The position numbers and the translations under genes were made by a program. Source: Lachnospiraceae bacterium (GTDB lineage Bacteria; Bacillota; Clostridia; Lachnospirales; Lachnospiraceae). From it: 32,258 nucleotides of DNA. Shown piece after piece: positions 6,976-32,258 of this stretch. The notes below the pieces were generated by a model. That model had not been told where the DNA came from. It ran no database searches and was given only the letters and a program-made list of their open reading frames with translations. Positions within the stretch are counted from its first letter, which is position 1. The number at the start of each line of letters is the position of its first letter. The stretch covers positions 1 to 32,258 of the forward strand of contig JAILKH010000190.1 in assembly GCA_024693925.1 (NCBI GenBank), in the 5' to 3' direction.

Positions 6976-7237
6976 ATTTTATAGTATTGAAATTTATTTG
7001 TCTGCTTTTCACAAAATTCAAATGGATAATTTTGTTATAATATGACAAATCGATCCGGAAATATAAAAAAGATATTTACAGTGGTTTATGAATATGTTAT
7101 TGTACATATCGCAAGTTGATTACATATGATTACGTTTCGGAATTAATTATTCTTGACATTATCGTCAGATTATCAAAGTTAATTAAATTAAATAGTTATA
7201 TATTTCTTGTACAGTGCAAAGAGTTGGAAAGGGCATT
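6976..7237 (+). promoter_or_regulatory. Upstream region of the type VII secretion locus
   Basis: This AT-rich stretch must hold the promoter of the secretion operon. A perfect TTGACA is at 7153-7158, but no good -10 lies 16-18 bases downstream. A TATAAT at 7036-7041 lacks a matching -35. Control by another sigma factor or an activator is possible. GGAAAGGG (7226-7233) is the ribosome binding site of the motor gene. I see no small gene here. Confidence 0.4.
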
Positions 7238-10200
7238 ATGCATATAGTTATTCAGATCTGCAATTCTGATGCATTGGAGGAGTTTGTTTATTCCGCATAT
7301 AATGCGGAAGGTTCGAAAATTATCAGGGATATACGGCTTCCGGGTGACAGGTTTAATATCACATCCGACTCAGAGGTATCACTGTCCATATCATTACAGG
7401 GATTAACCTTAAGAGAAAATAACTCCAATGTATTCTTTATAAATAATAACAAATCACAAACCTGTGAAAGTATTATCACCAAAGATTCCCTGTATAAGCT
7501 CATAACGAAAAATAAGGAAGAGCTTAATATGTATATTTTCTTCGGAAACGAAGATGGTATGCGTTTCTATGAGATGAAAAGAGGCCGTCCGGTATCCCTG
7601 GGAAGAAGTTTAGGTAATTTGATAAGTTGTCCGGAACGGGAAGATCTATCCGGTACACATTTAATCTTTCTGGCAACGGAAGAAGGGGGCAGACTTAATG
7701 TAAAAGGAAGGAGTGGATGTTATTTAAATGACCGTTATGTAGGATATATGGAATCCGTAGCTGTTAAATTCGGAGATGTTATAAGAGTCCTGGGCCTAAA
7801 GATAGTATGGATGGATAATTGTATAGGTATATTGAAGTTATATATGAAAAATAAGGCTTTACCGTCAAGGGAGCTTTGTCTTGTAAGGCTTAAGGAGTAT
7901 ACAGATACTGAGGAAATATATATACGGGAGGCGAAGAAGGATAACGGTTATTTTTATCCGGTACAGAGAAATAAGGTAATGCCGGATGAATCGGAAATTG
8001 AACTGGATTCACCGCCGGCAAAAAAAGAAATAAAAAAACCATCATTGATCATGAGTGTAGGTCCTGCACTTACAATGGCAATACCTATGAGTCTTGGCTA
8101 TGGATTATATATATATGCTGCCGGTAGGATGGGGACAGGGAAAATAGCTATATATATGTATACAGGTCTCGTCACGGCTTTTGCTTCGGCTATCCTGGGA
8201 GCACTGTGGGCTATACTGAATTTAAGGAACAACAGAATACGGATGGTTTCGGAAGAAGCCCTCAGACAAAAATCCTATTCCGATTATATAAAAAGCAGTG
8301 AAAAACTCATATATGATAAATTCAGATATAATACCAATGCATATTTAAGGAATTATCCCTCTGCAAAAGAAATGCTGACATCCGTAAATATGTCCGGTTT
8401 ATGGAACCGTAGAAAGGGTGATTCCGATCTGTATGTTTATCGGCTGGGGTTGGGGCAGCAGCCTTTTAAAGTGAGTATTAAGGTTCCCAGAGAGAAGTTT
8501 CAAACAATACCGGATGAACTGTGCGGGCTGCCCATGACCCTGAAGAAAAAATATTCAATGCTCAGTGATGTTCCGGTATGTATAGATATATCGGAAGATA
8601 CTTTTATCGGTCTGGTGGCTGAGAAAAGTAATAATCTTGCAGACTTGTTTATAAGCTTATCTATGCAGATCGCAGCTTCAACGGATGCATATCTTATTAA
8701 ATTCATTTTTATCTTTTCAAATAATATTATTCCTGAGGAAATAGTGGAATATATGCATTGGTTACCGCATTTACAGGGTGATGATGAACATTATGTATGT
8801 ATAGATTCCGAGAGGATAGATGAACTGTTATGCGGTATTGAACAGATAATTTCAGATGCGGAGGAATCCGGAAAAAGAATACTTATCTTTACCGATGACA
8901 GGCAGAGGGTAACTCTAAAATTGTTGGAATATGAAAATGTAAGTATTTTTTTGTTTGCAAATGATTACCGGGATCTGCCCGGGGAGTGTGATCTGCTGAT
9001 TCAGAATGACAGTTCCTTTAAAGGACTTATCAACTTGAGAAAAGGAGGTGAGAGAAAGGAGATAAGATTTGATCATTATAGTGAAGCGGAGGTGTACGAT
9101 CAGGTAAGAAAGCTTTCGTCATTGCGACTGAAAAAAGCCTCAATAAAGAAGCCTATTCCATCAAAGGTAACTTTACCTATGTTGTTTAATGTGGATTTTA
9201 TCACCACGGAATTTATCCTTGAGGGCTGGAAGGAAAATACTCCCCTGAACAGTCTGAGGGCTCCAATAGGTATGGGAGAGGATGGAAGGATCATATTTCT
9301 TGATATTCATGAAAAGGCACATGGCCCACATGGTCTTATAGCGGGAATGACCGGAAGCGGTAAGAGTGAAATGTTGCAGACTTTTATTTTATCATTGGCG
9401 ATCAGGTATTCTCCGGAGCAGATAGGTTTTTTCCTTATTGATTATAAAGGCGGGGGAATGGCAAATATGTTTGGTAAACTGCCTCATTTGCTGGGAAGTA
9501 TATCCAACCTGTCGGGAAATATGATCCATAGAGCGCTGGTTGCAATACGAAGTGAGAATGTCAGAAGGCAGAGACTGTTTCTTAAGGCAGGGGTTAATTC
9601 TATAAGAGATTATTCCCTTCTTTATGAGAACAGAAGGGTGACGGAACCCCTTGTGCATATTCTTATAATTGTAGATGAGTTTGCCGAATTAAAAAAAGAA
9701 GAACCGGATTTTATGAAGGAACTGATCAGTGTGGCTCAGGTGGGAAGAAGTCTTGGAGTGCATCTTATTCTGTCCACCCAGAAACCTGCCGGGACGGTTG
9801 ATGAGAAGATATTTGCAAATTCAAGATTCAGAATATGTTTGAGAGTACAGGATAAGCAGGATAGTAATGATATGCTGCACAGACCGGATGCCGCTTATAT
9901 AGCAAATCCGGGAAGGGCTTACCTTCAGGTGGGGAATGATGAGTTATTTGATGTATTTCAGGTGGGATATACCATGGAAAAGTACAGGAAGGAGGTCAAC
10001 AGTGAGCCGGAGATTTTTTGGCTGGATAAATACCGGAGAAGGAAGAAGTTATGTTTAATAAATGATGATTCTAAAGGGATCCGTAACCGGGATGATACGG
10101 AAAGCCCGGTCACTCATTTTTCCGGGATCATGGAAATGCTGTGTGAGAGTAACGAAAGAGTAAATCTCCCGGTGATCAGCGGACTTTGGCTGCCGCCCCT

Positions 10201-11704
10201 TCCTAAAAGGATTGTTTTAAAAGCGGCTGCTAAAGCGGCAGGAGGAATTGAAAAATATGATGTAGTAGCAGGACGCTATGATGCTCCGGCTAAACAGGAG
10301 CAGGGAGATTATCTGTTTAATCCCATAAGAAACGGTCATCATGTGATCATTGGAAGTTCCCAGAGCGGCAAGAGTACCTTCCTGCAGACTGTTATTTATG
10401 AGTATATTTATAACCTGACGGCAAGTGATATTAATATTTATATTGTAGATTACAGTAATGGTTTACTGTCCTGTTTTAAGGAAAGTAATTTAGTGGGCGG
10501 ATATATTGATGAAGAACATAAAGACAGGCTTGAGAATCTTTTCTGTATGCTGGACGAGGAGATGAATATAAGGAGAAATGCTTATAACGGAGTCAGTTTT
10601 ATCCAGAAGGTAGAGGAGGAAGAGAATGCGGCTATTGTTCTTGTAATAGATAATTACGGCAGCTTCAGAGATAAAAATGAAATGAGATATGACAATGAGC
10701 TGCAGAAATTGGTCAAATCCGGAGAAAGCTATGGAATTTATGTTGTTATAACAGGTGCCTCCATTGGTAGTGCGGATATACCGGTAAGATTATTTGAAAA
10801 TTGCAGAACCGGGATTAGCCTTTTGTTAAATGATAAATATCAATATTCTGAATGTATGCGTCAGATCCGGTTGCCTATTTTGCCGGATGAGGGTATCCGC
10901 GGAAGAGGGCTTGTAAGGCTGGAGGATGATGTTCTGGAATTTCAGACGGTTTTATGTTGTGACGGAAATGACAATGAAAGATATAAAAAGATACAGGAAA
11001 ATATCAGAGAGCGTAACGGAAGTCCCGGAATAAAAAGAGCAAAACAGGTTCCGTTTATACCTGACGAACCGGTACTTTCGGAACTTGATGATAGTATCGA
11101 TACCGATACTTTGAAGGATTATGATATTCCTTTTGGATATGAATTGCAGAGTGCAAGGGTGTGGTGTTTGCCCTTTGATAAGGCGAGGATCATATGTGTT
11201 GCGGGAAAGGCGGGCAGCGGACGAACAAATTCCTGCAGTATTGTTGAATACTATTGTAAGAAAAGGAATATTAAACTGTTTAAAGCCGGATCGCTCCCCA
11301 AAATGTGTGAGATCCTGAAGCGGGAAGAGACCGGATTGCTGATCTGTGATGATTATTCCGGATTGCTGGGGGATTTCTATGAAAAAAATTATGATAAAGA
11401 AATTGAAGAAAGTCTGATGGATCTGATGGATAATAAGGAGGGTATTAAGGTATTTATCACTTTATTAAATTCGGATCATAAGAGACTTGCGGGAAGACGG
11501 GCATATGATCTTCTAAGGGAGGTTTGTCTTGGATTATATTTGGGCGGGGGCCTTGATGCTCAGAATATATTTGATTATACATATTTGAGTTTTACGGAGC
11601 AGAACAGGGTAAAGCCTGTAGGTACGGCAACGGTTCTTAAGAAAAAAAAGATTGCTTATGCGGGAGATATCATTACTCCTTTGTATGAGAGGTTAATGGA
11701 TTGA
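7238..11704 (+). CDS. essC: Type VII secretion motor ATPase, EssC/YukB family
   Basis: EssC is the membrane-bound FtsK/SpoIIIE-type motor of T7SSb and binds substrates through its ATPase domains. From the ATG at 7238 the protein has 1488 residues, the usual length. Residues 1-215 form two FHA-like domains. Two membrane helices lie at about 272-296 and 302-327. Three ATPase domains follow. D1 has GMTGSGKS (K709) and a Walker B with D813-E814. D2 has GSSQSGKS (K1045), but its Walker B reads VIDNYG, without the catalytic Glu. D3 has GKAGSGRT, with Arg (1329) replacing the P-loop Lys. An active D1 with degenerate D2/D3 is the known pattern in EccC/EssC. A GTG at 7214 is an alternative start, but GGAAAGGG just before 7238 favours the ATG. 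Confidence 0.95.
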   Translation: MHIVIQICNSDALEEFVYSAYNAEGSKIIRDIRLPGDRFNITSDSEVSLSISLQGLTLRENNSNVFFINNNKSQTCESIITKDSLYKLITKNKEELNMYIFFGNEDGMRFYEMKRGRPVSLGRSLGNLISCPEREDLSGTHLIFLATEEGGRLNVKGRSGCYLNDRYVGYMESVAVKFGDVIRVLGLKIVWMDNCIGILKLYMKNKALPSRELCLVRLKEYTDTEEIYIREAKKDNGYFYPVQRNKVMPDESEIELDSPPAKKEIKKPSLIMSVGPALTMAIPMSLGYGLYIYAAGRMGTGKIAIYMYTGLVTAFASAILGALWAILNLRNNRIRMVSEEALRQKSYSDYIKSSEKLIYDKFRYNTNAYLRNYPSAKEMLTSVNMSGLWNRRKGDSDLYVYRLGLGQQPFKVSIKVPREKFQTIPDELCGLPMTLKKKYSMLSDVPVCIDISEDTFIGLVAEKSNNLADLFISLSMQIAASTDAYLIKFIFIFSNNIIPEEIVEYMHWLPHLQGDDEHYVCIDSERIDELLCGIEQIISDAEESGKRILIFTDDRQRVTLKLLEYENVSIFLFANDYRDLPGECDLLIQNDSSFKGLINLRKGGERKEIRFDHYSEAEVYDQVRKLSSLRLKKASIKKPIPSKVTLPMLFNVDFITTEFILEGWKENTPLNSLRAPIGMGEDGRIIFLDIHEKAHGPHGLIAGMTGSGKSEMLQTFILSLAIRYSPEQIGFFLIDYKGGGMANMFGKLPHLLGSISNLSGNMIHRALVAIRSENVRRQRLFLKAGVNSIRDYSLLYENRRVTEPLVHILIIVDEFAELKKEEPDFMKELISVAQVGRSLGVHLILSTQKPAGTVDEKIFANSRFRICLRVQDKQDSNDMLHRPDAAYIANPGRAYLQVGNDELFDVFQVGYTMEKYRKEVNSEPEIFWLDKYRRRKKLCLINDDSKGIRNRDDTESPVTHFSGIMEMLCESNERVNLPVISGLWLPPLPKRIVLKAAAKAAGGIEKYDVVAGRYDAPAKQEQGDYLFNPIRNGHHVIIGSSQSGKSTFLQTVIYEYIYNLTASDINIYIVDYSNGLLSCFKESNLVGGYIDEEHKDRLENLFCMLDEEMNIRRNAYNGVSFIQKVEEEENAAIVLVIDNYGSFRDKNEMRYDNELQKLVKSGESYGIYVVITGASIGSADIPVRLFENCRTGISLLLNDKYQYSECMRQIRLPILPDEGIRGRGLVRLEDDVLEFQTVLCCDGNDNERYKKIQENIRERNGSPGIKRAKQVPFIPDEPVLSELDDSIDTDTLKDYDIPFGYELQSARVWCLPFDKARIICVAGKAGSGRTNSCSIVEYYCKKRNIKLFKAGSLPKMCEILKREETGLLICDDYSGLLGDFYEKNYDKEIEESLMDLMDNKEGIKVFITLLNSDHKRLAGRRAYDLLREVCLGLYLGGGLDAQNIFDYTYLSFTEQNRVKPVGTATVLKKKKIAYAGDIITPLYERLMD

Positions 11705-11783
11705 GGCTTTGGAAGGGATTATTTAAAAAGGTCATCACCAACAGAGAAAGTTTGGTAAGAATTGAAAACAGAGGCAGAAGGAT

Positions 11784-12065
11784 TTGATCATAATAGAGGT
11801 TTATGCAGTTGAATTGGAAGAAAGAATAGAGCTGGAGGTTGATGAAAATATAACAGGGTTACAGTTGTGTGAATGTTTATCCGGAATATTTAAGCGCAAA
11901 GATACCGGGATTTTGATATGCAGGGATCCCTACGGTGCGCTAAGAGAAGAGGTGACACTTGCCGGATACGGCCTGGTAACCGGAACATTACTTATATACA
12001 GTTTTGTTAAACCGGTAAAGAAAATACCGGGAATGATCAAAAGAAAAGCAGATAAGGGAGGATAA
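11784..12065 (+). CDS. YukD/EsaB-like ubiquitin-fold protein
   Basis: A 93-residue protein starting with TTG (11784), preceded by GGCAGAAGGA; no ATG is available nearby in frame. The beginning IIIEVYAVELEERIELEVDE alternates hydrophobic and polar residues as in a ubiquitin-like beta hairpin, followed by a helix and further strands (GTLLIYSF). Size and position next to the motor and WXG100 genes fit YukD/EsaB, small ubiquitin-like components of T7SSb that act in secretion or its regulation. Identity is low by eye, so context carries much of the call. A basic tail (KKIPGMIKRKADKGG) follows the domain. The next gene starts 3 bases later. Confidence 0.72.
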   Translation: MIIIEVYAVELEERIELEVDENITGLQLCECLSGIFKRKDTGILICRDPYGALREEVTLAGYGLVTGTLLIYSFVKPVKKIPGMIKRKADKGG

Positions 12066-12068
12066 AAT

Positions 12069-12368
12069 ATGGAGGCTATTAATGCAATATATGTACGAAT
12101 GAGTTCTCTGCTTACGGAATTAGGAATGGTATGTGCTCAGTTGTATAAAGAGACAGATATTCTTACGGATAAGCTTAAATATCTGGGGATATCCTGGGAG
12201 GGAGCAGCTTATGATGAGTATGCAAGAGTACTTATGGCGGACCTTATGATGATGAGTATGACGGTAGCTAACATGAATAAGATGTACAGGTCCCTGCATT
12301 TTGCCCTGACGGAATATCAAAGGACGGAAATGTATGTATTTGATGCTATCGGGAGGATTGTGGTATGA
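12069..12368 (+). CDS. WXG100-superfamily small helical protein
   Basis: A 99-residue, almost entirely helical protein with the hairpin motif SWEGAAYDEY near the middle (about residues 43-52). This is the WXG turn between two helices. The C-terminus lacks a clear YxxxD/E secretion signal, ending instead in a hydrophobic FDAIGRIVV. The first helix contains two Cys-free heptads and the second is Met-rich (LMMMSMTVANMNKM), suggesting a buried interface with a partner. It overlaps the next gene by 4 bases (ATGA), so the two are probably made in equal amounts and may pair as a heterodimer, as many WXG100 or LXG-chaperone pairs do. GGGAGGA is the ribosome binding site. Confidence 0.78.
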   Translation: MEAINAIYVRMSSLLTELGMVCAQLYKETDILTDKLKYLGISWEGAAYDEYARVLMADLMMMSMTVANMNKMYRSLHFALTEYQRTEMYVFDAIGRIVV

Positions 12369-12673
12369 GATCAAAAACGGAAATAGATATTGAGTTTAAA
12401 AGAGCCATGGAACAGGCTGAGGAGCTGGAGGAGTTATCGGTATTGCTCTGTAATATATGTAATGTGAAATTTGACGGAACTTTATCACTGTTATCTAAGT
12501 CCTGGCAGGGACAGAATGCAGTGGATTATGTTAAAAAAACCGGGAAACTTAAAAATAATATCTATAATTCTGCGGAAATCCTTAAAGATACGGCGGATAT
12601 GATAAGAAGAACCGCATCTTTGATATATTCCGCAGAGATGGCGGCAGTCAGTTTATGCGGCGTAAGATGGTAG
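12365..12673 (+). CDS. WXG100-superfamily small helical protein, partner of the preceding gene
   Basis: A 102-residue helical protein with SWQGQNA at about residues 46-52, the WXG turn. The first helix contains three Cys residues (LLCNICN plus one near the end), unusual for this family. No YxxxD/E signal is visible after the second helix; the protein ends SLCGVRW. The start codon overlaps the stop of the preceding WXG gene, implying coupled translation and a likely heterodimer. It may be a secreted partner, or a cytoplasmic adaptor for the lipase-fold protein encoded downstream. Both roles are inferred from context only. Confidence 0.76.
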   Translation: MRSKTEIDIEFKRAMEQAEELEELSVLLCNICNVKFDGTLSLLSKSWQGQNAVDYVKKTGKLKNNIYNSAEILKDTADMIRRTASLIYSAEMAAVSLCGVRW

Positions 12674-12701
12674 TTAACAATATAATAATAGGAGGAAAGA
12701 A

Positions 12702-13001
12702 ATGGCATTTTTTCAGGTAACGGCAGCAGAACTTCGTAAGAAGGCAGAACAATTGAAGGGATTAAATAATCGATTCAAGACAGGAACGGACAGTCTTGAA
12801 ACCACCGAACAGGCTCTTAAGTCTATGTGGGAGGGGGAGGCAAACGATGTTTTTCATCAGGCATTTACCCGGGATAAGGGGCAAATGGACCGTTTTTACC
12901 AGGCTATAGAGCGTTACATTGAGGCGCTGCTTATAATTGCGGCTAAATATGAGGAAGCCGAGAACAGGAATATAGCAACGGCTCAGACAAGAACCTACTG
13001 A
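12702..13001 (+). CDS. WXG100 protein, EsxA-like
   Basis: A canonical 99-residue WXG100 protein. Helix 1 runs from about residue 8 to 40, the turn motif MWEGEAND is at 42-49, and helix 2 follows. YEEAE near residues 85-89 fits the bipartite YxxxD/E secretion signal that pairs with the WXG turn. Such proteins dimerise as antiparallel four-helix bundles, are exported through EssC and can be needed for secretion of other substrates. The start has a strong AGGAGG ribosome binding site. It is separated from the preceding gene by 28 bases. Confidence 0.92.
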   Translation: MAFFQVTAAELRKKAEQLKGLNNRFKTGTDSLETTEQALKSMWEGEANDVFHQAFTRDKGQMDRFYQAIERYIEALLIIAAKYEEAENRNIATAQTRTY

Positions 13002-13091
13002 TGATTCAACAGAAATAAATAAGATTATATTAACAGAAACAAAACCAGTTGCAATATGCGGGTATTGGTAAGTGGATAAAAGGAGGAATAT

Positions 13092-13409
13092 ATGGCAAGC
13101 GGAATTTTGAAAGTCACACCGGAGAAGCTTGTAGAGGCTTCTACCGAATTTAGTACAACAGGAAAAACGATCAGATCTCTTACTCAGGAAATGAATGAGA
13201 TCATAAACAGTTTAAAATCCGTCTGGATGGGGGAAGCAGCCTCAGGTTATGCGGCAAAATTTGCTGAGTTGTCCGACGACATTGAAAGGATCAACCGGAT
13301 GATACAGGAGCACGTTTCTGATCTTTTGGAAATCTCAAGAGAATATCAGACTGCGGAAGATTCAAATACAGAGCAGAGTCAGTCACTGGTTACAGAGGTT
13401 GTTTCGTAA
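13092..13409 (+). CDS. WXG100 protein, second EsxA-like paralogue
   Basis: A 105-residue WXG100 protein with VWMGEAA at about residues 43-49 and YQTAE near 90-94, fitting YxxxD/E. It resembles the 12702 gene product in length and layout but is divergent in sequence, so this is an old duplication or a heterodimer partner. A strong AAGGAGG ribosome binding site precedes it, and 90 bases separate it from the previous gene. I see neither a promoter nor a terminator in that gap. The tail after the signal is Ser/Thr/Gln-rich (SNTEQSQSLVTEVVS). Confidence 0.92.
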   Translation: MASGILKVTPEKLVEASTEFSTTGKTIRSLTQEMNEIINSLKSVWMGEAASGYAAKFAELSDDIERINRMIQEHVSDLLEISREYQTAEDSNTEQSQSLVTEVVS

Positions 13410-13421
13410 GGAGAAGGTTTT

Positions 13422-14792
13422 ATGGCTGTCGGATATAAAAATCTAATAATGATTGATAATTCTAAGTCTGTGGGAAAGGCAAATTTCAGCCTGTGTAAAG
13501 AAACTGCGAAATATATATGCAGAAACTCAAATCCTAAGGATTCCTTCAGTATTGCGATCTTTGGGGAAAAGTTTGACAGTTTAACCGAATATGTTCAGGA
13601 TAAAGAGCTTCTTATAAGTACGGTCGATGGGATTGAAACGGCTGACAGAGATACTTTTATTACAGACAATCTGGTTGAAATCATTAATGAATGGGATGAA
13701 AGTGATGTGGCATGCAGAAATATAATCCTGTTTACGGATGGAGAAGAATCAGAATCCGTGTTGCATGCAAATGAGGAGCTTTATTATCTTCTGCAAAAGT
13801 CGGGCTATCCGGTATATGTTATTCAGAGTGTGGAAAAAAAGGATATTCCTCCGGCAAAAAATCTGTCTGCGATAGCTACTTTAAGTAACGGGAAATTATT
13901 ACTTACGGAGTTTGAAGGCTCCGAAGCCGGTTCCGAGATCACATTGGGAAACAATATATTGGAGGCTATTGAGGAAAGAAGAGAGAAGGATGAGAACTTA
14001 AAGGAAAATGAAAGCCGGGAAACCACCGATAATATGGCGGTACAGGAAGATATTTCCGAAGAAGACGGAGAAGAAACTTCGCAGGAAGTTAAAAAAGAGA
14101 CTGCGGGTGAAGCCGCCTTAGAAACTCAAACCCTGTATATTGAAAATGAAAATGACAGGGCTTTGGCCGTTAATGATAACGAGGCTTCCGCTCTTTTGAC
14201 GGCGGAGAACAAGCCGATCATACGAAATAAGGAGGGTGAAGGAGGAGGTATTAATTTAAGTCTGATATTTCCTGTTTTGGGACTTGTTATTGCGGTGGTA
14301 TTTGCATATGTCATTCATAGATTTACAAAAACCGATAATAAAAAAGAGAAAAGGGAAAGAAGATTTATTGCCGATATGGTTGAAGAAACCGGGCATGAAG
14401 CGAAAGTTGCGGAAAATGCCGAGGAGTACGATCTTCTTACCTGTAAGATGGAGGAGGATTTCGGTGCGACTTTGATATTGGAACCTAAAGATGGAGCAAA
14501 GGATATAGTACTTGAGGATTGTTCCGATCCTACAAGGTTATACAGGGCAGTGTGTGAGGATTGCCTTATAGTAGGCAGAATGGAAAATGTATGTGATATA
14601 GTTATCGACCGGGATGATTCAATATCCGCAAGGCACTGTGAGTTAAGTGTAAAGGGTGATAACTGGTATGTCAGGGATTTGCATTCTTCCAACGGTACTA
14701 AAGTAAATGCTAAGAAAGTATTTCAGGAATTGCTGTTAAAAAACGGAGATATATTGCAGCTTGGTAAGTCTGCATTACAGGTTAGGATATGA
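13422..14792 (+). CDS. Membrane protein with vWA and FHA domains, probable T7SS component
   Basis: A 456-residue protein of unusual layout. Residues 1-190 form a von Willebrand A domain with an intact MIDAS: D12-S14-S16 in IDNSKS, and FTDGEES with D106. An acidic, disordered linker spans about 190-270. A single hydrophobic helix at about 278-298 is followed by a strongly basic stretch (KKEKRERR), which predicts a cytoplasmic C-terminus. The C-terminal FHA domain (about 377-456) contains GRMENVCD, SARHCEL and HSSNGTKVN, the phosphothreonine-binding set. The N-terminus has no signal peptide, so how the vWA domain is placed across the membrane is unclear. It lies 12 bases after a WXG100 gene and overlaps the lipase gene by 4 bases. 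I infer a structural or regulatory role in the secretion machine, possibly in place of EssB. Confidence 0.85.
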   Translation: MAVGYKNLIMIDNSKSVGKANFSLCKETAKYICRNSNPKDSFSIAIFGEKFDSLTEYVQDKELLISTVDGIETADRDTFITDNLVEIINEWDESDVACRNIILFTDGEESESVLHANEELYYLLQKSGYPVYVIQSVEKKDIPPAKNLSAIATLSNGKLLLTEFEGSEAGSEITLGNNILEAIEERREKDENLKENESRETTDNMAVQEDISEEDGEETSQEVKKETAGEAALETQTLYIENENDRALAVNDNEASALLTAENKPIIRNKEGEGGGINLSLIFPVLGLVIAVVFAYVIHRFTKTDNKKEKRERRFIADMVEETGHEAKVAENAEEYDLLTCKMEEDFGATLILEPKDGAKDIVLEDCSDPTRLYRAVCEDCLIVGRMENVCDIVIDRDDSISARHCELSVKGDNWYVRDLHSSNGTKVNAKKVFQELLLKNGDILQLGKSALQVRI

Positions 14793-16132
14793 TGGATTTA
14801 AGTGAAAAAGAATTATTACTGCTTTCCAATTATCTGTATATTGATGAGTGTACCGGGTACGGTACTATAAAGGATACTCTTGACCATTGTCGGGATAACA
14901 AAGGAAACATAGATACAGATAAGGTTGCGGGGCTTGGTATCGGCGGTTGTATGAGCAGTGAAGAGTGTGCGGATATCCTGGGAGAAATGGATGGATGCAG
15001 AGATGAATTTAAGGATCTAAATGCTGTCAGAAGTATAGATAAGGGCGGTATAAGAGCCGTGTGTTTTGAATATCCCGGAGAAAAAAACAAGGCAGTTGTG
15101 GTTTTTAGAGGAACCGGCGGTGCTTATGATGCCTGGGCAGATAATTTGAGAGGCGAATATAAAACAGATACCGATATGCAGAAACTGGCTGACGATTTTG
15201 TGCGATATGACTGTGGGGTATATGATAATATTGTGGTAAGCGGTCATTCAAAGGGTGGAAATATGGCACAGTATGTTACAGTTACCAACCGGGACCGGGT
15301 ACAAAGGTGTGCATCCTTTGACGGACAGGGACTTTCGGACAGTGCTCTTAAATCGTATGAAAGTCAGCTTAAAGATGCTTCCTACAGAATAAGTTCAATA
15401 TCCGGCGATAAGGATTATGTTAATATTTTGCTTAATCCCATCGCCCTAAAAAGGGTTTATGTAAAAACGGGAGTGAAGGCTGCAGGGCTTGCAGATATTG
15501 CAGTGGCTCTTCACAGTTCCTATGTTTTATATAAGAGTTGTGAATTTGACGGGGAGGGAAATATTACAAATCTTAGCCGTCAAAACCCTCTGTTAAGCGG
15601 GATACGAAAAAAGATCGCAGAATTCGTTAAGGACATTGACAGGCTTCCTAAGGAAGGGAATGTAAAGGTAAGTGAAATGCTGGCGGCGATTGTTGCCTCC
15701 GGCCTCGGCAATGATGTTAGCGATCCGGTTAAAAAGGAAAAGATAAAGGAGGCATATTCGGAGCTTTGCGATTACGGGGCATCCCTTATAGGAATTAATA
15801 CGGATACGGAATACGAAACGGTGGTACCGGTAACGGATTTTGTTTATGCAGATGTAACCGGTCTTAGGAAGGTTGTGAATATGCTTGAGGAAATGAGTAA
15901 GGAATTAAAGGAGATTACCGGAAGATTACAGGATATAAGAACTACAATAAATTATAAGGCAGCTTCCAGGCTGGCGGTGGAAACAATAATCCGGAAACAG
16001 GAAAATAAACTTTCCGGATTTGCAGAAACAATGACGGGCTTTGAAGAGATACTGGGTGAGATATCTAATTTGTATGCTGACTGCGAGAACAGGATATGTG
16101 ATAATATCCTCTGCATTAATTTTGGGGGCTGA
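14789..16132 (+). CDS. Lipase-fold protein (Mbeg1/DUF2974-like), probable T7SS effector
   Basis: A 447-residue protein. The N-terminal 300 residues form an alpha/beta-hydrolase domain: VVFRGTGG (oxyanion region), the nucleophile elbow GHSKGGN with Ser154, a candidate acid in SGDKDYVN, and a His in VALHSSYV. This resembles the Mbeg1-like/DUF2974 group and class 3 lipases. The last 100 residues are helical with a break at INYKAAS, which resembles a degenerate WXG turn, and end with YADCE at 429-433, matching YxxxD/E. Catalytic domain first and targeting domain last is the layout known for the S. aureus secreted lipase TslA. No signal peptide is present. Phospholipase activity is inferred. The ATG overlaps the preceding stop; a second ATG is at 14792. 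Confidence 0.82.
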   Translation: MMDLSEKELLLLSNYLYIDECTGYGTIKDTLDHCRDNKGNIDTDKVAGLGIGGCMSSEECADILGEMDGCRDEFKDLNAVRSIDKGGIRAVCFEYPGEKNKAVVVFRGTGGAYDAWADNLRGEYKTDTDMQKLADDFVRYDCGVYDNIVVSGHSKGGNMAQYVTVTNRDRVQRCASFDGQGLSDSALKSYESQLKDASYRISSISGDKDYVNILLNPIALKRVYVKTGVKAAGLADIAVALHSSYVLYKSCEFDGEGNITNLSRQNPLLSGIRKKIAEFVKDIDRLPKEGNVKVSEMLAAIVASGLGNDVSDPVKKEKIKEAYSELCDYGASLIGINTDTEYETVVPVTDFVYADVTGLRKVVNMLEEMSKELKEITGRLQDIRTTINYKAASRLAVETIIRKQENKLSGFAETMTGFEEILGEISNLYADCENRICDNILCINFGG

Positions 16133-26118: not shown

Positions 26119-26181
26119 GAGTTAGATAAAATCATACGAAAATAATGATTTGCATATTTATTGGAACGGACAGGTGCGGAT

Positions 26182-28272
26182 ATGGGATTAAATCAGATAA
26201 ATCTTACCGAAGAGATCAGTATACCGAAGGGAAATTTTGATTTTGTATATGAGGCTACGCATAATGAACGGCTCTATCTTGAATGTCTTTATGCCGAGCA
26301 GCATATGTTGACGGATTATGATGAGTGTCTTAAGGGACTTCGTAAATCTCTTGATATGCTGGGAATAGAGATCGAGAAGTGTAAAAGAGCACAGAAAAAT
26401 GAGGTTACGCCCCAAGAGGCTCTTCGAAGTATTTTTATTGATCTTAAAAGACTTAAAGGTGGCCGGGGAGACCGTCGAAGAGCCACTAAGAGAAATTTCT
26501 TTATCCGTCATATGATAGATTTTGAGAAACAGGAACTTGAGGTATATACCAGTGATCAGATCCGGAAATTTATTGATGAGTATAGAGAAATATATCCTTA
26601 CGGTATAAAAAATCACGAACTTAAAAATACCGATATGAAATCCGTGGCAAATGATTTCTATAACAGATGCTCGGTGCCTTTTCGGGAAAAGGGATGTGCC
26701 AAAGCTTCGGATTGTGCTAATCTTATAAGATTATTTCATGGACTTTTGTGCTTTATCAATTATGTTGATGAGCCCTATGATCCCGATCTTACACCTTATG
26801 AAGATTATTATCCGATCCCTGCGGAATATTATGATGAATTGGATCTTCTTGGAGGTTCCAATTACAGGATTTATGTTTCCGGTGACGGCAGCAGATATTT
26901 TATGTTCAAGCGCAAGGATATAGAATATATGGATATTCTGGATCCGGATATATACCGGGAACGTCTGTGGGAGCTTGAAAAGATGCAGGAATTATGGAGA
27001 CGTCTTGCAACCCTTCCCGATTATAAACCTTATGAGGAGGTCGAAACAGGTACCTATGATCATCGCAGAAAGGTATTTGAATTCGTTTCCAGACCCCGTG
27101 CACTTTCCGAGCGTGTAATTAAGGAAATGAAGAAGAAGGGACAGCGGGAAGAGCTGGTAAGAGGACTGATCCGAATGCTTAAGCTGATGTTTGGATCGGA
27201 GCCCCCGCTTACTCATCTGAGCATTAATCCCGGAAATATATATGTATGCGAAAATGAAGGAGTTTATATACCTTATATAGTTGATTTTGATGAAAAAAGT
27301 ATACTTCTTAAGAAGCGGGAATATCCCGCGAGGGGAAGGGTTGAGGATTATTTCAACAGCATGGACAAGTTGAAATTTATAGCTCCCGAAATAAGGAATA
27401 ATCCCGATACCATACCTGAGAATACAAGGGCGGCAGGAATGTATTCTCTTGGCAAGATCATAAAATATATATACGGATCCGATGAAAATAAGGTTAAATC
27501 ATATGTGGAGGAACTTACGGTAAAGAATCCGGCTAAAAGGATGTCTATAGAAAGAGCGGGTATTTCCTTTGATGAAGAGGTTGTTTATTTTGAACCCACA
27601 ACAACAATAAATCTGGATTTTCTCACGGAATTCAGATTGCTGATTTTTTCTCCCTATAAGGGGTTTGAGAATTATCATATAAGCGATACGGTTTCCATAG
27701 GAAGGATGTACAGTTCATCCGGAAAGGATATTAAGGTAGATTCACCCATTGTATCAAGGACTCACGGGAGATTTGCAAAGACAGAAGGCGGTTTTGAATA
27801 CAGCGATATGCTGAGTACAAACGGTACCTTTATTAACGGCAGTCTTTTCAGCGTGCCGAGAAACGGTATTAAGCATCCCCATAAGCTTGAAATCGGAGAT
27901 ATTCTTAAGATAGATAATCCCGATTTTAAGAATACCCATAGAAATGCCGTGTTCATGTTTGTTTTAAGAACTTCGCAGATATTAATGCAGCAGCATGAGA
28001 TATTGCTGGAAGAGGATATGGATATCCTTGTCGGAAGAGAGCAGGGAGATATCATTCTTGCAAATAACAGGGTTTCGAAACAGCATGCAAGGTTTGTTAT
28101 GAAGGAAGGGATAGTATATATACAGGATATGAACAGCACTAACGGGGTTTTTGTTAACGGAAAACGTATAGATTCCCTTACGGCACTAAATAATATGGAT
28201 TCGGTCCGTATAGAAGACTATATATTTATTCTTGTAAATAATAAAATTTATTATTATTCTGAAAGGTTTTGA
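26182..28272 (+). CDS. Pseudokinase-like protein with two C-terminal FHA domains
   Basis: A 696-residue cytoplasmic protein with no membrane helix. Residues 1-230 are novel, mostly helical and rich in charged residues. Residues 230-460 resemble a degraded Ser/Thr kinase: THLSINPGN (about 344-352) is in the place of the HRD-x-K-x-x-N catalytic loop but lacks the Asp, VDFDE (367-371) corresponds to DFG, and FIAPE to the APE motif; no clear glycine loop is seen. Two FHA domains follow at about 486-570 (GRMYSSSGKD, RTHGRF, STNGTFING) and 606-690 (VGREQGD, SKQHARF, STNGVFVNG), each with the Ser/His and STNG residues that bind phosphothreonine. The ATG at 26182 has AGGTG upstream; an in-frame TTG at 26161 lacks one. 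It may connect to the T7SS, whose EssB is also a pseudokinase; that is inference. Confidence 0.82.
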   Translation: MGLNQINLTEEISIPKGNFDFVYEATHNERLYLECLYAEQHMLTDYDECLKGLRKSLDMLGIEIEKCKRAQKNEVTPQEALRSIFIDLKRLKGGRGDRRRATKRNFFIRHMIDFEKQELEVYTSDQIRKFIDEYREIYPYGIKNHELKNTDMKSVANDFYNRCSVPFREKGCAKASDCANLIRLFHGLLCFINYVDEPYDPDLTPYEDYYPIPAEYYDELDLLGGSNYRIYVSGDGSRYFMFKRKDIEYMDILDPDIYRERLWELEKMQELWRRLATLPDYKPYEEVETGTYDHRRKVFEFVSRPRALSERVIKEMKKKGQREELVRGLIRMLKLMFGSEPPLTHLSINPGNIYVCENEGVYIPYIVDFDEKSILLKKREYPARGRVEDYFNSMDKLKFIAPEIRNNPDTIPENTRAAGMYSLGKIIKYIYGSDENKVKSYVEELTVKNPAKRMSIERAGISFDEEVVYFEPTTTINLDFLTEFRLLIFSPYKGFENYHISDTVSIGRMYSSSGKDIKVDSPIVSRTHGRFAKTEGGFEYSDMLSTNGTFINGSLFSVPRNGIKHPHKLEIGDILKIDNPDFKNTHRNAVFMFVLRTSQILMQQHEILLEEDMDILVGREQGDIILANNRVSKQHARFVMKEGIVYIQDMNSTNGVFVNGKRIDSLTALNNMDSVRIEDYIFILVNNKIYYYSERF

Positions 28273-28337
28273 CTTTAAACCCGAAGAAAACTGTGGTAAA
28301 ATGTTCAATGCATAGGGGCCTGCACAGGGAGGCTATA

Positions 28338-29168
28338 TTGAAGAAATACACATTGAAGGTTATATCACTTATGATCCTTTCTTCTGCTTTGTTACTTGTG
28401 GCGGGTTGTGCTACAGACGAGGCAGTCATATTACCGGATAGGGAAGTAATTATTTCACAGGAAACCATTAGTAATGAGGAATCTGACAGGGATGGAGTGA
28501 TCCCGCAAGAGGATAACGGGACCGGCAGTATTGTTCCGCAAAATAAGGATAACGGTGCCGGAAATACTGATGTGCTAAATAAGGATAACGGTGCCGGAAA
28601 TTCTGATACGCAAAATAAGGATAACGATGCCGGTAGAACCGGTTTTGGTGAAGAAGATGATTATTCTGCCATAAGCAGGGTTACTGTCTATGTCTGTGGG
28701 GCTGTTGTGAATCCCGGAGTCTATACCCTGGACCCGGAAGCCAGGATAGTAGATGCGGTAGAAATGGCAGGCGGAATGAATGAAGAGGCAGATCCCGATT
28801 ATATTAACCAGGCGCTTTTGTTAACGGACGGAACCAGGATATATATTCCCACAAGGTCTGAAACTTCCGAATTATCACCGCTTAAAGAATATGGACAGGC
28901 ATCGGTAAACCCAGGTGCAGGGGGAGTGCCCGGTAAGCAGGTTTTAAGTTCGCAGGGGCAGGATGAAAATTCTGCAGGGATTGTAAATATCAACACCGGT
29001 TCTTTGCAGGAGCTTATGACTTTGCCGGGAATAGGGGAAGCCAAGGCGGGACTTATAATCGAATATCGTGAAAGTAACGGCGGCTTTGCAAGGATAGAAG
29101 ATATAATGAAGATCAACGGGATCAAGGAAGGTATGTTTAATAAGATAAAAGACAGGATCAGTATTTAA
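28338..29168 (+). CDS. ComEA-like helix-hairpin-helix DNA-binding lipoprotein
   Basis: From a TTG start at 28338 (AGGGAGG five bases upstream) the product has 276 residues. A lipoprotein signal ends in LVAGC with the lipid-bearing Cys at 24, whereas most ComEA proteins are held by an N-terminal membrane helix. A disordered linker contains three 12-residue repeats (NKDNGAGN-type, about 69-104). An SLBB domain follows (VTVYVCGAVVNPGVYTLDPE, about 120-175), then a second linker. The C-terminal tandem helix-hairpin-helix domain (INTGSLQELMTLPGIGEAKA, about 215-276) binds DNA without sequence specificity. In competent bacteria ComEA takes up DNA at the cell surface. ComEC is not in the window. Confidence 0.9.
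   Translation: MKKYTLKVISLMILSSALLLVAGCATDEAVILPDREVIISQETISNEESDRDGVIPQEDNGTGSIVPQNKDNGAGNTDVLNKDNGAGNSDTQNKDNDAGRTGFGEEDDYSAISRVTVYVCGAVVNPGVYTLDPEARIVDAVEMAGGMNEEADPDYINQALLLTDGTRIYIPTRSETSELSPLKEYGQASVNPGAGGVPGKQVLSSQGQDENSAGIVNINTGSLQELMTLPGIGEAKAGLIIEYRESNGGFARIEDIMKINGIKEGMFNKIKDRISI
28542..28649 (+). repeat. 36-bp in-frame tandem repeat in the comEA-like gene
   Basis: Three 36-bp units start at 28542, 28578 and 28614, each beginning AATAAGGATAACG. They encode the 12-residue linker repeats NKDNGAGNTDVL, NKDNGAGNSDTQ and NKDNDAGRTGFG. Unit length is a multiple of three, so copy number can change without a frameshift. Confidence 0.85.
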
Positions 29169-29179
29169 GGGGGAAAAGT

Positions 29180-29878
29180 ATGAAGCGGGTATTGGTAGTT
29201 GATGATGAGAAGATCATTGTAAAGGGTTTCGTATTTGCTATTCAAAATGAGGATACGGAAGTTGACGCTGCCTATGATGGGGAGGAAGCTCTTGAGATGA
29301 TCAGGAATAAGGAATACGATATTGTGTTTCTGGATGTTATGCTGCCGAAGCTTGACGGCTTTGAGGTATGTAAAAAAGTAAGAGAATTTTCTTCGGTTCC
29401 CATAATCATGGTTACAGCGAAAAATGATGATTCCGATAAGATAGCGGGACTTAATTTCGGGGCGGATGATTATATTACCAAGCCCTTTAATATCGGAGAA
29501 GTTAAGGCCAGAATGGAAGCAATATTAAGAAGGACCGGTTCTAAGAAGAATAAGCCGGCTAAGGTCACTGTACCGGATCAGGTTCTTGAGATCAGTGATA
29601 TGAGACTTGAGAGAAACAATAAGCGTTTGTATATAAACAATAAAGAAGTAAATATTACAGTCAAGGAATTTGAAGTACTGGATCTGCTTGCAAGTAATGC
29701 GGGGAAGGTATACAGCAGGGAAAAACTGCTGGAGATAATATGGGGCCTGGATTATCCCGGGGGTTCAAGAACGGTTGATGTACATGTCAGAAGGTTAAGG
29801 GAAAAGATAGAAGAGGAGCCGAGTGAGCCAAAGTATGTTCAAACAAAATGGGGTGTCGGGTATTATTTCCGCGGTTAG
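29180..29878 (+). CDS. OmpR/PhoB-family response regulator
   Basis: A 232-residue two-component regulator. The receiver domain (1-120) has the acidic pocket D8-D9, the phosphoacceptor D52 in FLDVMLPK, the switch Thr in MVTAKND, and the Lys of TKPF. The winged-helix DNA-binding domain (about 133-232) has the typical KEFEVLDLLASNAGKVYSRE, GGSRTVDVHVRRLREKI and WGVGYYF pattern. GGGGGAAAAG is the ribosome binding site. It lies 11 bases after the ComEA-like gene, and the histidine kinase start overlaps its end by 44 bases, so the pair is coupled. Target genes are unknown. Confidence 0.95.
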   Translation: MKRVLVVDDEKIIVKGFVFAIQNEDTEVDAAYDGEEALEMIRNKEYDIVFLDVMLPKLDGFEVCKKVREFSSVPIIMVTAKNDDSDKIAGLNFGADDYITKPFNIGEVKARMEAILRRTGSKKNKPAKVTVPDQVLEISDMRLERNNKRLYINNKEVNITVKEFEVLDLLASNAGKVYSREKLLEIIWGLDYPGGSRTVDVHVRRLREKIEEEPSEPKYVQTKWGVGYYFRG

Positions 29879-32258
29879 GGGAAAGTTTAACAGAATTAAG
29901 CTGTTCAGGAGCCTGGGGGTACGTATATTTTTGATCATATGTATCGTAGGTATCGTACCCGCGGCTATATTACGTAATATACTTTTAAACAGTTATGAAA
30001 CAAGAGCCATATCAGTGAGAAAGGGTGAAATTCAGAATCAGTGTATGATCCTGGCCGATCATCTTGTTACCTATGGATATTTAACAGATCAGTCTTCCGA
30101 AGTAGTTAATGCTGAACTGGAACAATTCTCATCTCTATATAATGGTCGTATTATGATCATTGACGGTAATCTTAAGATAATCAAGGATACTTATTCCATT
30201 AGTCAGGGCAAGATAATGATATCGGAAGAAATATTGCGCTGCTTTGACAAAGATACCATTTCAAAACATGATAAGATAAACCAATATATTGAATTTACCA
30301 CACCGATAACGGATCATGAAACCGGAACCGTACTTGGTGTTATTCTTACGAGCATTTCTACCGAAAGTATAGCCAAGACGATAGAGATAATGAGTCGACA
30401 GGCATACATTTTCGAAATAATTATTTCGGTTATTATCATAAGTTTTTCGTTTTTTGTATCCATAAGTCTTATTAAACCCTTCAGGGATATAAATACTGCG
30501 ATAATTCAGGTGGAGGAAGGCTTTACGGAAGAGAAGATATCGGTTCCCGTATATAATGAAACGGAATCCATTGCGGCTTCTTTTAATAAACTTACGGAGA
30601 AGATGAACACACTTGAATCCTCTCGTCAGGAATTTGTTTCCAATGTCTCTCATGAATTAAAAACCCCCATTACCTCCGTTAAGGTGCTTGCCGATTCTTT
30701 ATTGTCCCAGGATAATGTGCCGGTAGAAATATACCGGGAGTTTATGGAGGACATCACCAATGAGATAGATCGTGAGGATAAGATCATTAACGATCTTCTG
30801 TCGCTGGTTAAGCTGGATAAGCAGGCGGGAAGTCTTATGAATATTTCCGTTGTTGATATAAACAGTATGATCGAGGACATAATAAAGAGAGTTCGTCCCA
30901 TAGCGGACAGGGCAAAGGTTGAACTTATTCTTGAAAGTATACGCCCGGTAAGTGCGGAGATTGATGAGATAAAGCTTTCCCTGGCTATAATGAATGTGAT
31001 AGAGAACGGAATTAAATATAATAAAGAAAACGGATGGGTGAAGGTTAGTGTAGACGCCGATGCCCAGTTCTTTACGGTTATAATTTCGGATTGCGGTATC
31101 GGTATCCCTCAGGATTCACTGGCTCACATATATGAAAGATTTTATCGCGTGGACAAATCCCACTCAAGAGAGATAGGGGGTACCGGTCTTGGACTTGCCA
31201 TTACAAGAAATACCGTTCTTATGCATGACGGAGCTATCAAGGTTGAAAGCAGTGAGGGAGTAGGAACCACTTTTACCATAAAGATACCTAAAAATCACGT
31301 GACAGTCGTTCCCAAACCGGATACAGTTTCCGGGAAAAGTAAAAAGCCGAGGGTCTCCAAGGCAATAAAAAATGTTATGATGGTCTTTCTGATTTCCGGG
31401 CTGATTTTTGGCCTTTCCGGATGTGCTCATAACAAAGAAAATTCGGTCGCCGCTTCGGAGAATGTTTACAGTATTTATTATCCGGTGAAAGAAAACAGAG
31501 GTGTGAAGCCGGTAAAGAAGGAATTATTAAGTCAAAACAGTGATGAGATCATTAATGAACTCCTTGATCTTATGTCGGATCAGCCCGGAGATTATGAACT
31601 TAAACCTACCATTCCGGAGGATGTTCCGGTTTATTCCGTGAGCTTAAATGAAGGTTTGCTGGTTCTTGATTTTGGCTCTGAGTATTATAAGATAACCGGC
31701 CGGGAAGAAATCCTAAGGCGGGCGGCTATTGTAAGAACCCTTGACCAGTGTTCGGAGATAAAGGAGATATCTTTTACCGTTGAGGGTTCTCCGTTAAATG
31801 ATTCCGGTGGGAACCCTGTGGGAATGATGACCGCCGATATGTTCATTGACAATGCGGGGGATGAGATAAATTCCTATGAGCGTATTAAGCTGGTACTTTA
31901 TTATGCCAATGAGGAGGGAGACAGACTTATTAAAACCACGGAAGCCATTGCGTATAATTCAAATATTTCCATGGAGAAGATAGTAAGCGAACGAGTGCTG
32001 TCCGGGCCTTTGTCATATGGAGTATTTCCGGTTACAAATCCTGAAGTGAAGCTCCTAAGTGTTTCTACTAAGGACGGAGTGTGTTATGTAAACTTAAGTA
32101 AGGAGTTCCTTACTAAGAAGGGTAAGCTTTCCGATGAAGTAGTATTATATTCTTTTGTTAATTCCCTGACCGAGCTTCCAAATGTTAATAAGGTACAATT
32201 TATGATAGATTCGGAAACCGAGATTTCTTTTGGAGATCATACTTATTTGGATGAACCC
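29835..32258 (+). CDS. Sensor histidine kinase fused in frame to a lipoprotein-like GerMN module (3' end outside window)
   Basis: The frame is open from the ATG at 29835 to the window end (808 codons). Residues 1-470 form a standard sensor kinase: membrane helix 1 (about 27-50), a sensor domain, helix 2 (about 188-213), HAMP, the H box NVSHELKTP with H273, the N box NVIENGIKYN, and the G boxes DCGIGIP and GGTGLGLAI. The kinase should end after IKIPKNH near residue 495. The same frame continues through KKPRVSKAIKN into MMVFLISGLIFGLSGCA, a perfect lipoprotein signal with lipobox Cys530, then two GerMN domains (about 560-690 and 695-808). GerMN modules occur in sporulation GerM and in LpqB-type envelope lipoproteins. 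Either one three-helix protein is made, or an internal ATG (31377) also starts a separate lipoprotein. The start overlaps the regulator gene and has only a weak ribosome binding site. Confidence 0.88.
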   Translation, partial: MFKQNGVSGIISAVRGKFNRIKLFRSLGVRIFLIICIVGIVPAAILRNILLNSYETRAISVRKGEIQNQCMILADHLVTYGYLTDQSSEVVNAELEQFSSLYNGRIMIIDGNLKIIKDTYSISQGKIMISEEILRCFDKDTISKHDKINQYIEFTTPITDHETGTVLGVILTSISTESIAKTIEIMSRQAYIFEIIISVIIISFSFFVSISLIKPFRDINTAIIQVEEGFTEEKISVPVYNETESIAASFNKLTEKMNTLESSRQEFVSNVSHELKTPITSVKVLADSLLSQDNVPVEIYREFMEDITNEIDREDKIINDLLSLVKLDKQAGSLMNISVVDINSMIEDIIKRVRPIADRAKVELILESIRPVSAEIDEIKLSLAIMNVIENGIKYNKENGWVKVSVDADAQFFTVIISDCGIGIPQDSLAHIYERFYRVDKSHSREIGGTGLGLAITRNTVLMHDGAIKVESSEGVGTTFTIKIPKNHVTVVPKPDTVSGKSKKPRVSKAIKNVMMVFLISGLIFGLSGCAHNKENSVAASENVYSIYYPVKENRGVKPVKKELLSQNSDEIINELLDLMSDQPGDYELKPTIPEDVPVYSVSLNEGLLVLDFGSEYYKITGREEILRRAAIVRTLDQCSEIKEISFTVEGSPLNDSGGNPVGMMTADMFIDNAGDEINSYERIKLVLYYANEEGDRLIKTTEAIAYNSNISMEKIVSERVLSGPLSYGVFPVTNPEVKLLSVSTKDGVCYVNLSKEFLTKKGKLSDEVVLYSFVNSLTELPNVNKVQFMIDSETEISFGDHTYLDEP

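Follow-up and report, generated by a model that had tools for sequence, protein, structure and literature searches.

The stretch of DNA analyzed here, a contig of 32,258 nucleotides that we call the window, contained a histidine kinase frame that ran without a stop codon into a GerMN lipoprotein. The kinase and the GerMN protein were encoded by separate, neighboring genes in every relative that was classified. We read the fusion either as a variant of the widespread regulator-kinase-GerMN trio that is confined to one lineage or as an assembly indel, and it is not an established new architecture. We consider the chances of a real fusion, counting cut and uncut chains together, to be about even. 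The explanation that we favor, tentatively and at clearly less than even chances, is that the window sequence is correct and that a lineage-specific fusion yields a chain that is cut at its lipobox into a kinase and a GerMN lipoprotein.

The window is one complete contig (C136) of a draft genome whose kin are Lachnospiraceae; the draft consists of 201 contigs and 3.05 Mb and is 98% complete. The contig end at 32258 cuts the GerMN C terminus, and the fused frame was still open at this point. The features that bear on the junction were as follows.

28269 to 29168, plus strand: ComEA-like protein (SLBB and helix-hairpin-helix), the 5' neighbor; HHH_3 at E 1.5e-17, TIGR00426 at 62.1 bits versus a cut-off of 53.1
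29180 to 29878, plus strand: OmpR-family response regulator; Response_reg at E 1.4e-31, Trans_reg_C at E 7.9e-28
29823 to 31292, plus strand: histidine kinase part; possible starts GTG 29823, ATG 29835 and GTG 29853
about 29919 to 29969 and about 30408 to 30458, plus strand: kinase membrane helices, from hydrophobicity
about 30621 to 30821, plus strand: HisKA, E 2.5e-14
about 30963 to 31295, plus strand: HATPase_c, E 9e-26
31293 to 31358, plus strand: in-frame linker from kinase to lipoprotein, basic toward its end; in the nearest relatives, the end of the kinase gene is overlapped by the start of GerMN here
31340 to 31342, plus strand: TAA stop, kinase frame +2, close to the end point of the nearest relatives' kinases
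31359 to 31424, plus strand: third hydrophobic helix or lipoprotein signal with lipobox LSGC; Cys codon at 31422 to 31424
31473 to 31796, plus strand: GerMN (Germane, PF10646) domain 1, from Pfam and AlphaFold2
31896 to 32216, plus strand: GerMN (Germane, PF10646) domain 2, from Pfam and AlphaFold2

The first-pass annotation had described a kinase and a lipoprotein with no stop between them, a third hydrophobic helix with a lipobox at Cys530, and two GerMN domains, and each of these features was recovered. The frame from 29823 to 32258 comprised 812 codons and no stop. All of the plus-strand stops within 31255 to 31424 were in the other two frames, namely, at 31261, 31279, 31300, 31366, 31378, 31390, and 31402 in frame +1 and at 31289 and 31340 in frame +2. 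The chain had hydrophobic segments at residues 33 to 49, 196 to 212, and 518 to 534 (numbered from GTG 29823), and the last of these ended in LSGC, whose Cys is residue 530 when counted from ATG 29835. The N-terminal part was a sensor histidine kinase, with HisKA and HATPase_c matches above their cut-offs and membrane helices. The C-terminal part had the sequence features of a bacterial lipoprotein, a hydrophobic signal with a lipobox ending in Cys (VMMVFLISGLIFGLSGC). Across 40 aligned rows, the lipobox Cys column was conserved to 90% or more.

Germane (PF10646) matched the fused chain in two stretches (E 3.4e-34; 118.3 bits versus a curated cut-off of 23). An AlphaFold2 model of 31287 to 32258, which took in the linker and the GerMN part without the kinase, placed a helix over 31359 to 31415 followed by two well-predicted GerMN domains (mean pLDDT, 87.6; pTM, 0.51). 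The two Germane stretches in the fused frame were the sole ones in the assembly; hence, a separate GerMN copy that might substitute for the fused one was not found.

The kinase start codon in the window is uncertain, with 29823, 29835, and 29853 as candidates. In a survey of kinase starts in 80 loci, including the window (L112 was left out), seven loci (L033, L048, L053, L060, L061, L082, and L083) lacked any ATG, GTG, or TTG in the stretch of the kinase frame that runs from the preceding in-frame stop to about the first membrane helix, and their kinase start overlaps the regulator end. Because such codons were lacking in that stretch, a rare start codon may serve the kinase in these seven loci. 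In several sisters, an ATG was located 5 bases before the regulator stop, and the window has GCG at that position.

A junction script was applied to 106 loci (80 from a genome-contig scan and 26 from a genus search), and 104 were classified; L098 and L110, which had no GerMN match, were outside the classification. The first-pass annotation had stated that a separate GerMN gene commonly lies next to the kinase and had suggested looking for the same fusion in related genomes. The former was seen in all of the classified relatives, and the latter was seen in none of them: 0 of the 103 classified loci other than the window had a fused kinase-GerMN frame. In these 103 loci, the GerMN gene was in the kinase frame behind the stop in 24 cases, in frame +1 in 53, and in frame +2 in 26. 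Kinase and GerMN were likewise separate in 64 of 64 other loci in a second set (65 loci with the window), which overlaps the first because some genomes are common to both collections, and one further locus (L184) was not fused. Relatives that all carry two genes had been proposed as grounds for rejecting the fusion. This pattern held in all of the classified loci, but it cannot tell a lineage-specific fusion from an error.

Wider searches gave the same picture. The junction query matched strongly (E 1e-46 or better) in 26 of the 37 genomes of the genus, and a stop-free span from kinase to GerMN was found only in the window. In the order (392 genomes searched) and in the class (148 genomes searched, at E up to 1e-20), each kinase-to-GerMN span among the matches listed, apart from that of the window, had at least one stop. 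The class search also returned rows with open frames of 481 to 485 amino acids (G461, G462, and G489). Six genomes from the order search with reported open frames of 847 to 900 amino acids (G384, G106, G074, G135, G065, and G085) and one from the class search with 858 amino acids (G533) were considered as further fusions and rejected, as direct reading showed separate genes; in those seven cases, the reported lengths seem to run across the stop. Thus, the classified loci did not provide the one or more additional genomes that would make the kinase-GerMN fusion a class. An exact 23-base linker pattern had no match in viral contigs, a literature search on GerMN and histidine kinases yielded no such fusion in titles or the starts of abstracts, and a search for fused kinase-lipoprotein polyproteins found nothing.

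The ten nearest relatives in the tree set had kinases that were 76 to 84% identical to that of the window. In all ten, the GerMN gene started in frame +1 before the kinase stop, with an overlap of roughly 20 to 38 bases. Because kinase and GerMN overlap in different frames in these relatives, a net indel is needed for the fusion. An 84-base linker was still open in 1,865 of 5,000 dinucleotide shuffles, and since a linker of such composition often stays open, one indel is enough. With the kinase stop no longer in frame, an open linker is not a rare chance event; the striking part is the contrast with the relatives.

A chimera or a foreign GerMN part was rejected, as the kinase tree and the GerMN tree each put the window and its ten nearest relatives together in a single clade (11 rows, 100/99). 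The kinase tree additionally joined the window to four of the ten (96/95), and the GerMN tree had no resolution there. The window was 84% identical in kinase and 67% identical in GerMN to both L033 and L035, which were 83% and 74% identical to each other, respectively. These identities hinted at faster GerMN evolution after the fusion, and this idea was also rejected, as none of 16 relative-rate comparisons gave a significant excess for GerMN. The same was true of all 16 comparisons for the kinase, and the lowest p across the tests was 0.30. That neither half showed an excess of change is compatible with continued use of both.

The strongest alternative to a real fusion, which we rate about as likely as the favored explanation, is an error in the assembled bases or a minority variant that became fixed in the consensus. 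Here, a small indel around 31290 to 31340 would have joined two genes of an ordinary, separate trio that in the organism would still overlap in different frames, like those of its nearest relatives. The retention of two genes in all of the classified relatives fits this explanation, as do the ten nearest kinases, whose ends overlap a GerMN gene in frame +1 and from which the window is off by a net indel. The frame +2 stop at 31340, close to where the relatives' kinases end, fits it too. The setting points the same way: this is a single draft assembly of many contigs, the contig ends about 0.9 kb past the junction, and a relative's ComEC matched the assembly in part only. Most of these observations also count against a real fusion.

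On the other side, a standard GerMN start was missing in every frame at the place that corresponds to the start in the nearest relatives. The stretch from 31285 to 31376 had just two ATG, GTG, or TTG codons, an in-frame GTG at 31299 and an ATG at 31372 in frame +1; the in-frame ATGs that come next (31377 and 31380) fall within the hydrophobic core. The GerMN start of the ten nearest relatives was upstream of a basic stretch, in several cases behind a purine-rich sequence. Judging from its letters, the window offers no good start for a separate GerMN, and for that reason an assembly error must also account for the missing start. Furthermore, no frame break was visible in 23 other window proteins, as judged by Pfam coverage, although two of them lacked any match and coverage was partial for several others.

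If the bases are correct, the favored explanation proceeds as follows. A small indel in the kinase-GerMN overlap would have joined the last two proteins of the trio, so that a ribosome finishing the kinase must run on into GerMN and make one chain. The positive-inside rule predicts the orientation of a basic linker followed by a hydrophobic helix; the linker and the third hydrophobic segment would insert with the C-terminal side outside. Lipidation and cleavage are predicted because the lipobox is intact, with Lgt and signal peptidase II acting at LSGC/Cys530. One product would be the kinase, ending in a short membrane tail at its C terminus, and the other would be a GerMN lipoprotein anchored in the membrane; the ancestral partners would thus be restored in 1:1 amounts. 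GerMN would then tune the kinase from outside, an idea modeled on LpqB and MtrB. Cytochrome b/c1 of Bradyrhizobium is a bacterial precedent for a precursor that is cut by signal peptidase. Provided that the fusion is real, a precursor cut by the lipoprotein signal peptidase into the ancestral pair appears to be the most likely outcome.

Against this explanation, the lipoprotein nature of GerMN was not clear for every relative. A crude lipobox pattern was present in 62 of 78 GerMN heads; in L176 and L184, inspection by eye showed no Cys behind the hydrophobic start of GerMN.

A fusion that is real but uncut, in which a kinase with a third membrane helix carries a tethered extracellular GerMN pair as an intramolecular sensor or brake, has the open frame, the domains, and the helices in its favor just as the cleaved precursor does. 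However, the LSGC motif and its conserved Cys are intact, so cleavage is expected, and the tethered form was found in no classified relative. We regard the uncut, three-helix kinase as unlikely and as less likely than the cleaved precursor. Internal initiation at GTG 31299, ATG 31377, or ATG 31380, which would make most of the GerMN protein with some fused chain besides, is more doubtful still: in-frame start codons are present and an AAGG precedes ATG 31377, but the 14 bases between them are a long spacing, a start at 31377 or 31380 would give a signal sequence without its basic region, no ribosome-site-like sequence was seen by eye ahead of GTG 31299, and ribosomes on the kinase would read through regardless.

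The gene context of the pair was examined in the relatives. Kinase and GerMN genes were neighbors in every classified relative, and in the relatives inspected, the regulator, kinase, and GerMN genes were flanked by comEA and comEC, with comEC identified directly behind GerMN by Pfam in L035 and L041. The Pfam gene order in L041 was a trypsin-like protease with PDZ domains, the ComEA-like protein, kinase, GerMN, a ComEC-like competence protein, and DNA polymerase III delta; a ComEC-like competence protein was likewise located 3' of GerMN in L035. In the distant genomes L173 to L177, a ComEA-like open reading frame preceded regulator, kinase, and GerMN, as judged from sequence. The comEA/comEC setting is not universal. 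L172 (G384) had a kinase-GerMN pair without an adjoining regulator or ComEA reading frame and with a DegV-like reading frame (by sequence) just 5' of it, and the script found no regulator just 5' of the kinase in 5 of 80 loci (L081, L085, L091, L094, and L097). Because ComEC of L035 gave only partial matches in the window's assembly, confined to its C-terminal third, the comEC gene expected 3' of GerMN is probably absent from the assembly.

Two other regions of the window were recorded. Positions 7214 to 16132 encode, consecutively, an FtsK/SpoIIIE-type ATPase (1,496 amino acids), WXG100, VWA-FHA, and Mbeg1-like proteins and look like a type VII-like secretion cluster. Directly 5' of the comEA-like gene, 26161 to 28272 encode a 703-amino-acid protein with two FHA stretches in its C-terminal part and no Pfam match in its N-terminal part.

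The closest known arrangement is the regulator-kinase-GerMN trio of Lachnospiraceae and other Clostridia, which has the same domains and, in L035 and L041, the same gene order. The difference is that the trio uses two genes for kinase and GerMN, overlapping in different frames in the nearest kin, whereas the window has one frame. In Actinobacteria, LpqB carries GerMN and has a specific domain besides it. LpqB, a lipoprotein encoded with MtrAB in mycobacteria, is described in passages of two reports as modulating the kinase MtrB (PMC5487470, PMC13189361). The MtrAB-LpqB operon likewise combines a regulator, a sensor kinase, and a lipoprotein, but LpqB is a separate gene, unlike GerMN in the window. 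Matches in the fused chain at E values up to 0.1 were to Germane, HATPase_c, HisKA, and a subthreshold HATPase_c_2, and none was to the LpqB-specific domain in this chain, whose C terminus is cut by the contig end. The NCBIfam scores for MtrB (187.2 versus a cut-off of 450) and MtrA (216.7 versus 300) were below both cut-offs, which indicates that the window system is not MtrAB itself.

At the family level, the catalytic part best resembled WalK (248.1 bits) and PnpS (239.8 bits). The former is far short of the WalK cut-off of 725, and YycF scored 247 versus 340, so the pair did not qualify as WalRK (YycFG); the latter is far under the equivalog cut-off of 400 for the PnpRS kinase. Solved GerMN proteins with similar sequences are the putative lipoprotein 5j7r (E 4.3e-10) and the spore protein GerM 6gzb (E 4.7e-7), both solved without a kinase.

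The location of the trio between comEA-like and comEC-like genes suggests a tie of envelope signaling to DNA-uptake genes. If the fusion is real, it would represent a bacterial precursor of an unusual kind, with its lipobox inside the chain, and, as a fusion of neighboring partners, it would be natural evidence that the GerMN lipoprotein and the kinase act together. Were the chain left uncut, the accessory lipoprotein of a three-component system would be a domain of the kinase itself. The main interest of the window is this hint that GerMN and the kinase act together, and with or without a real fusion, the neighboring kinase and GerMN genes in the relatives represent a testable partner pair.
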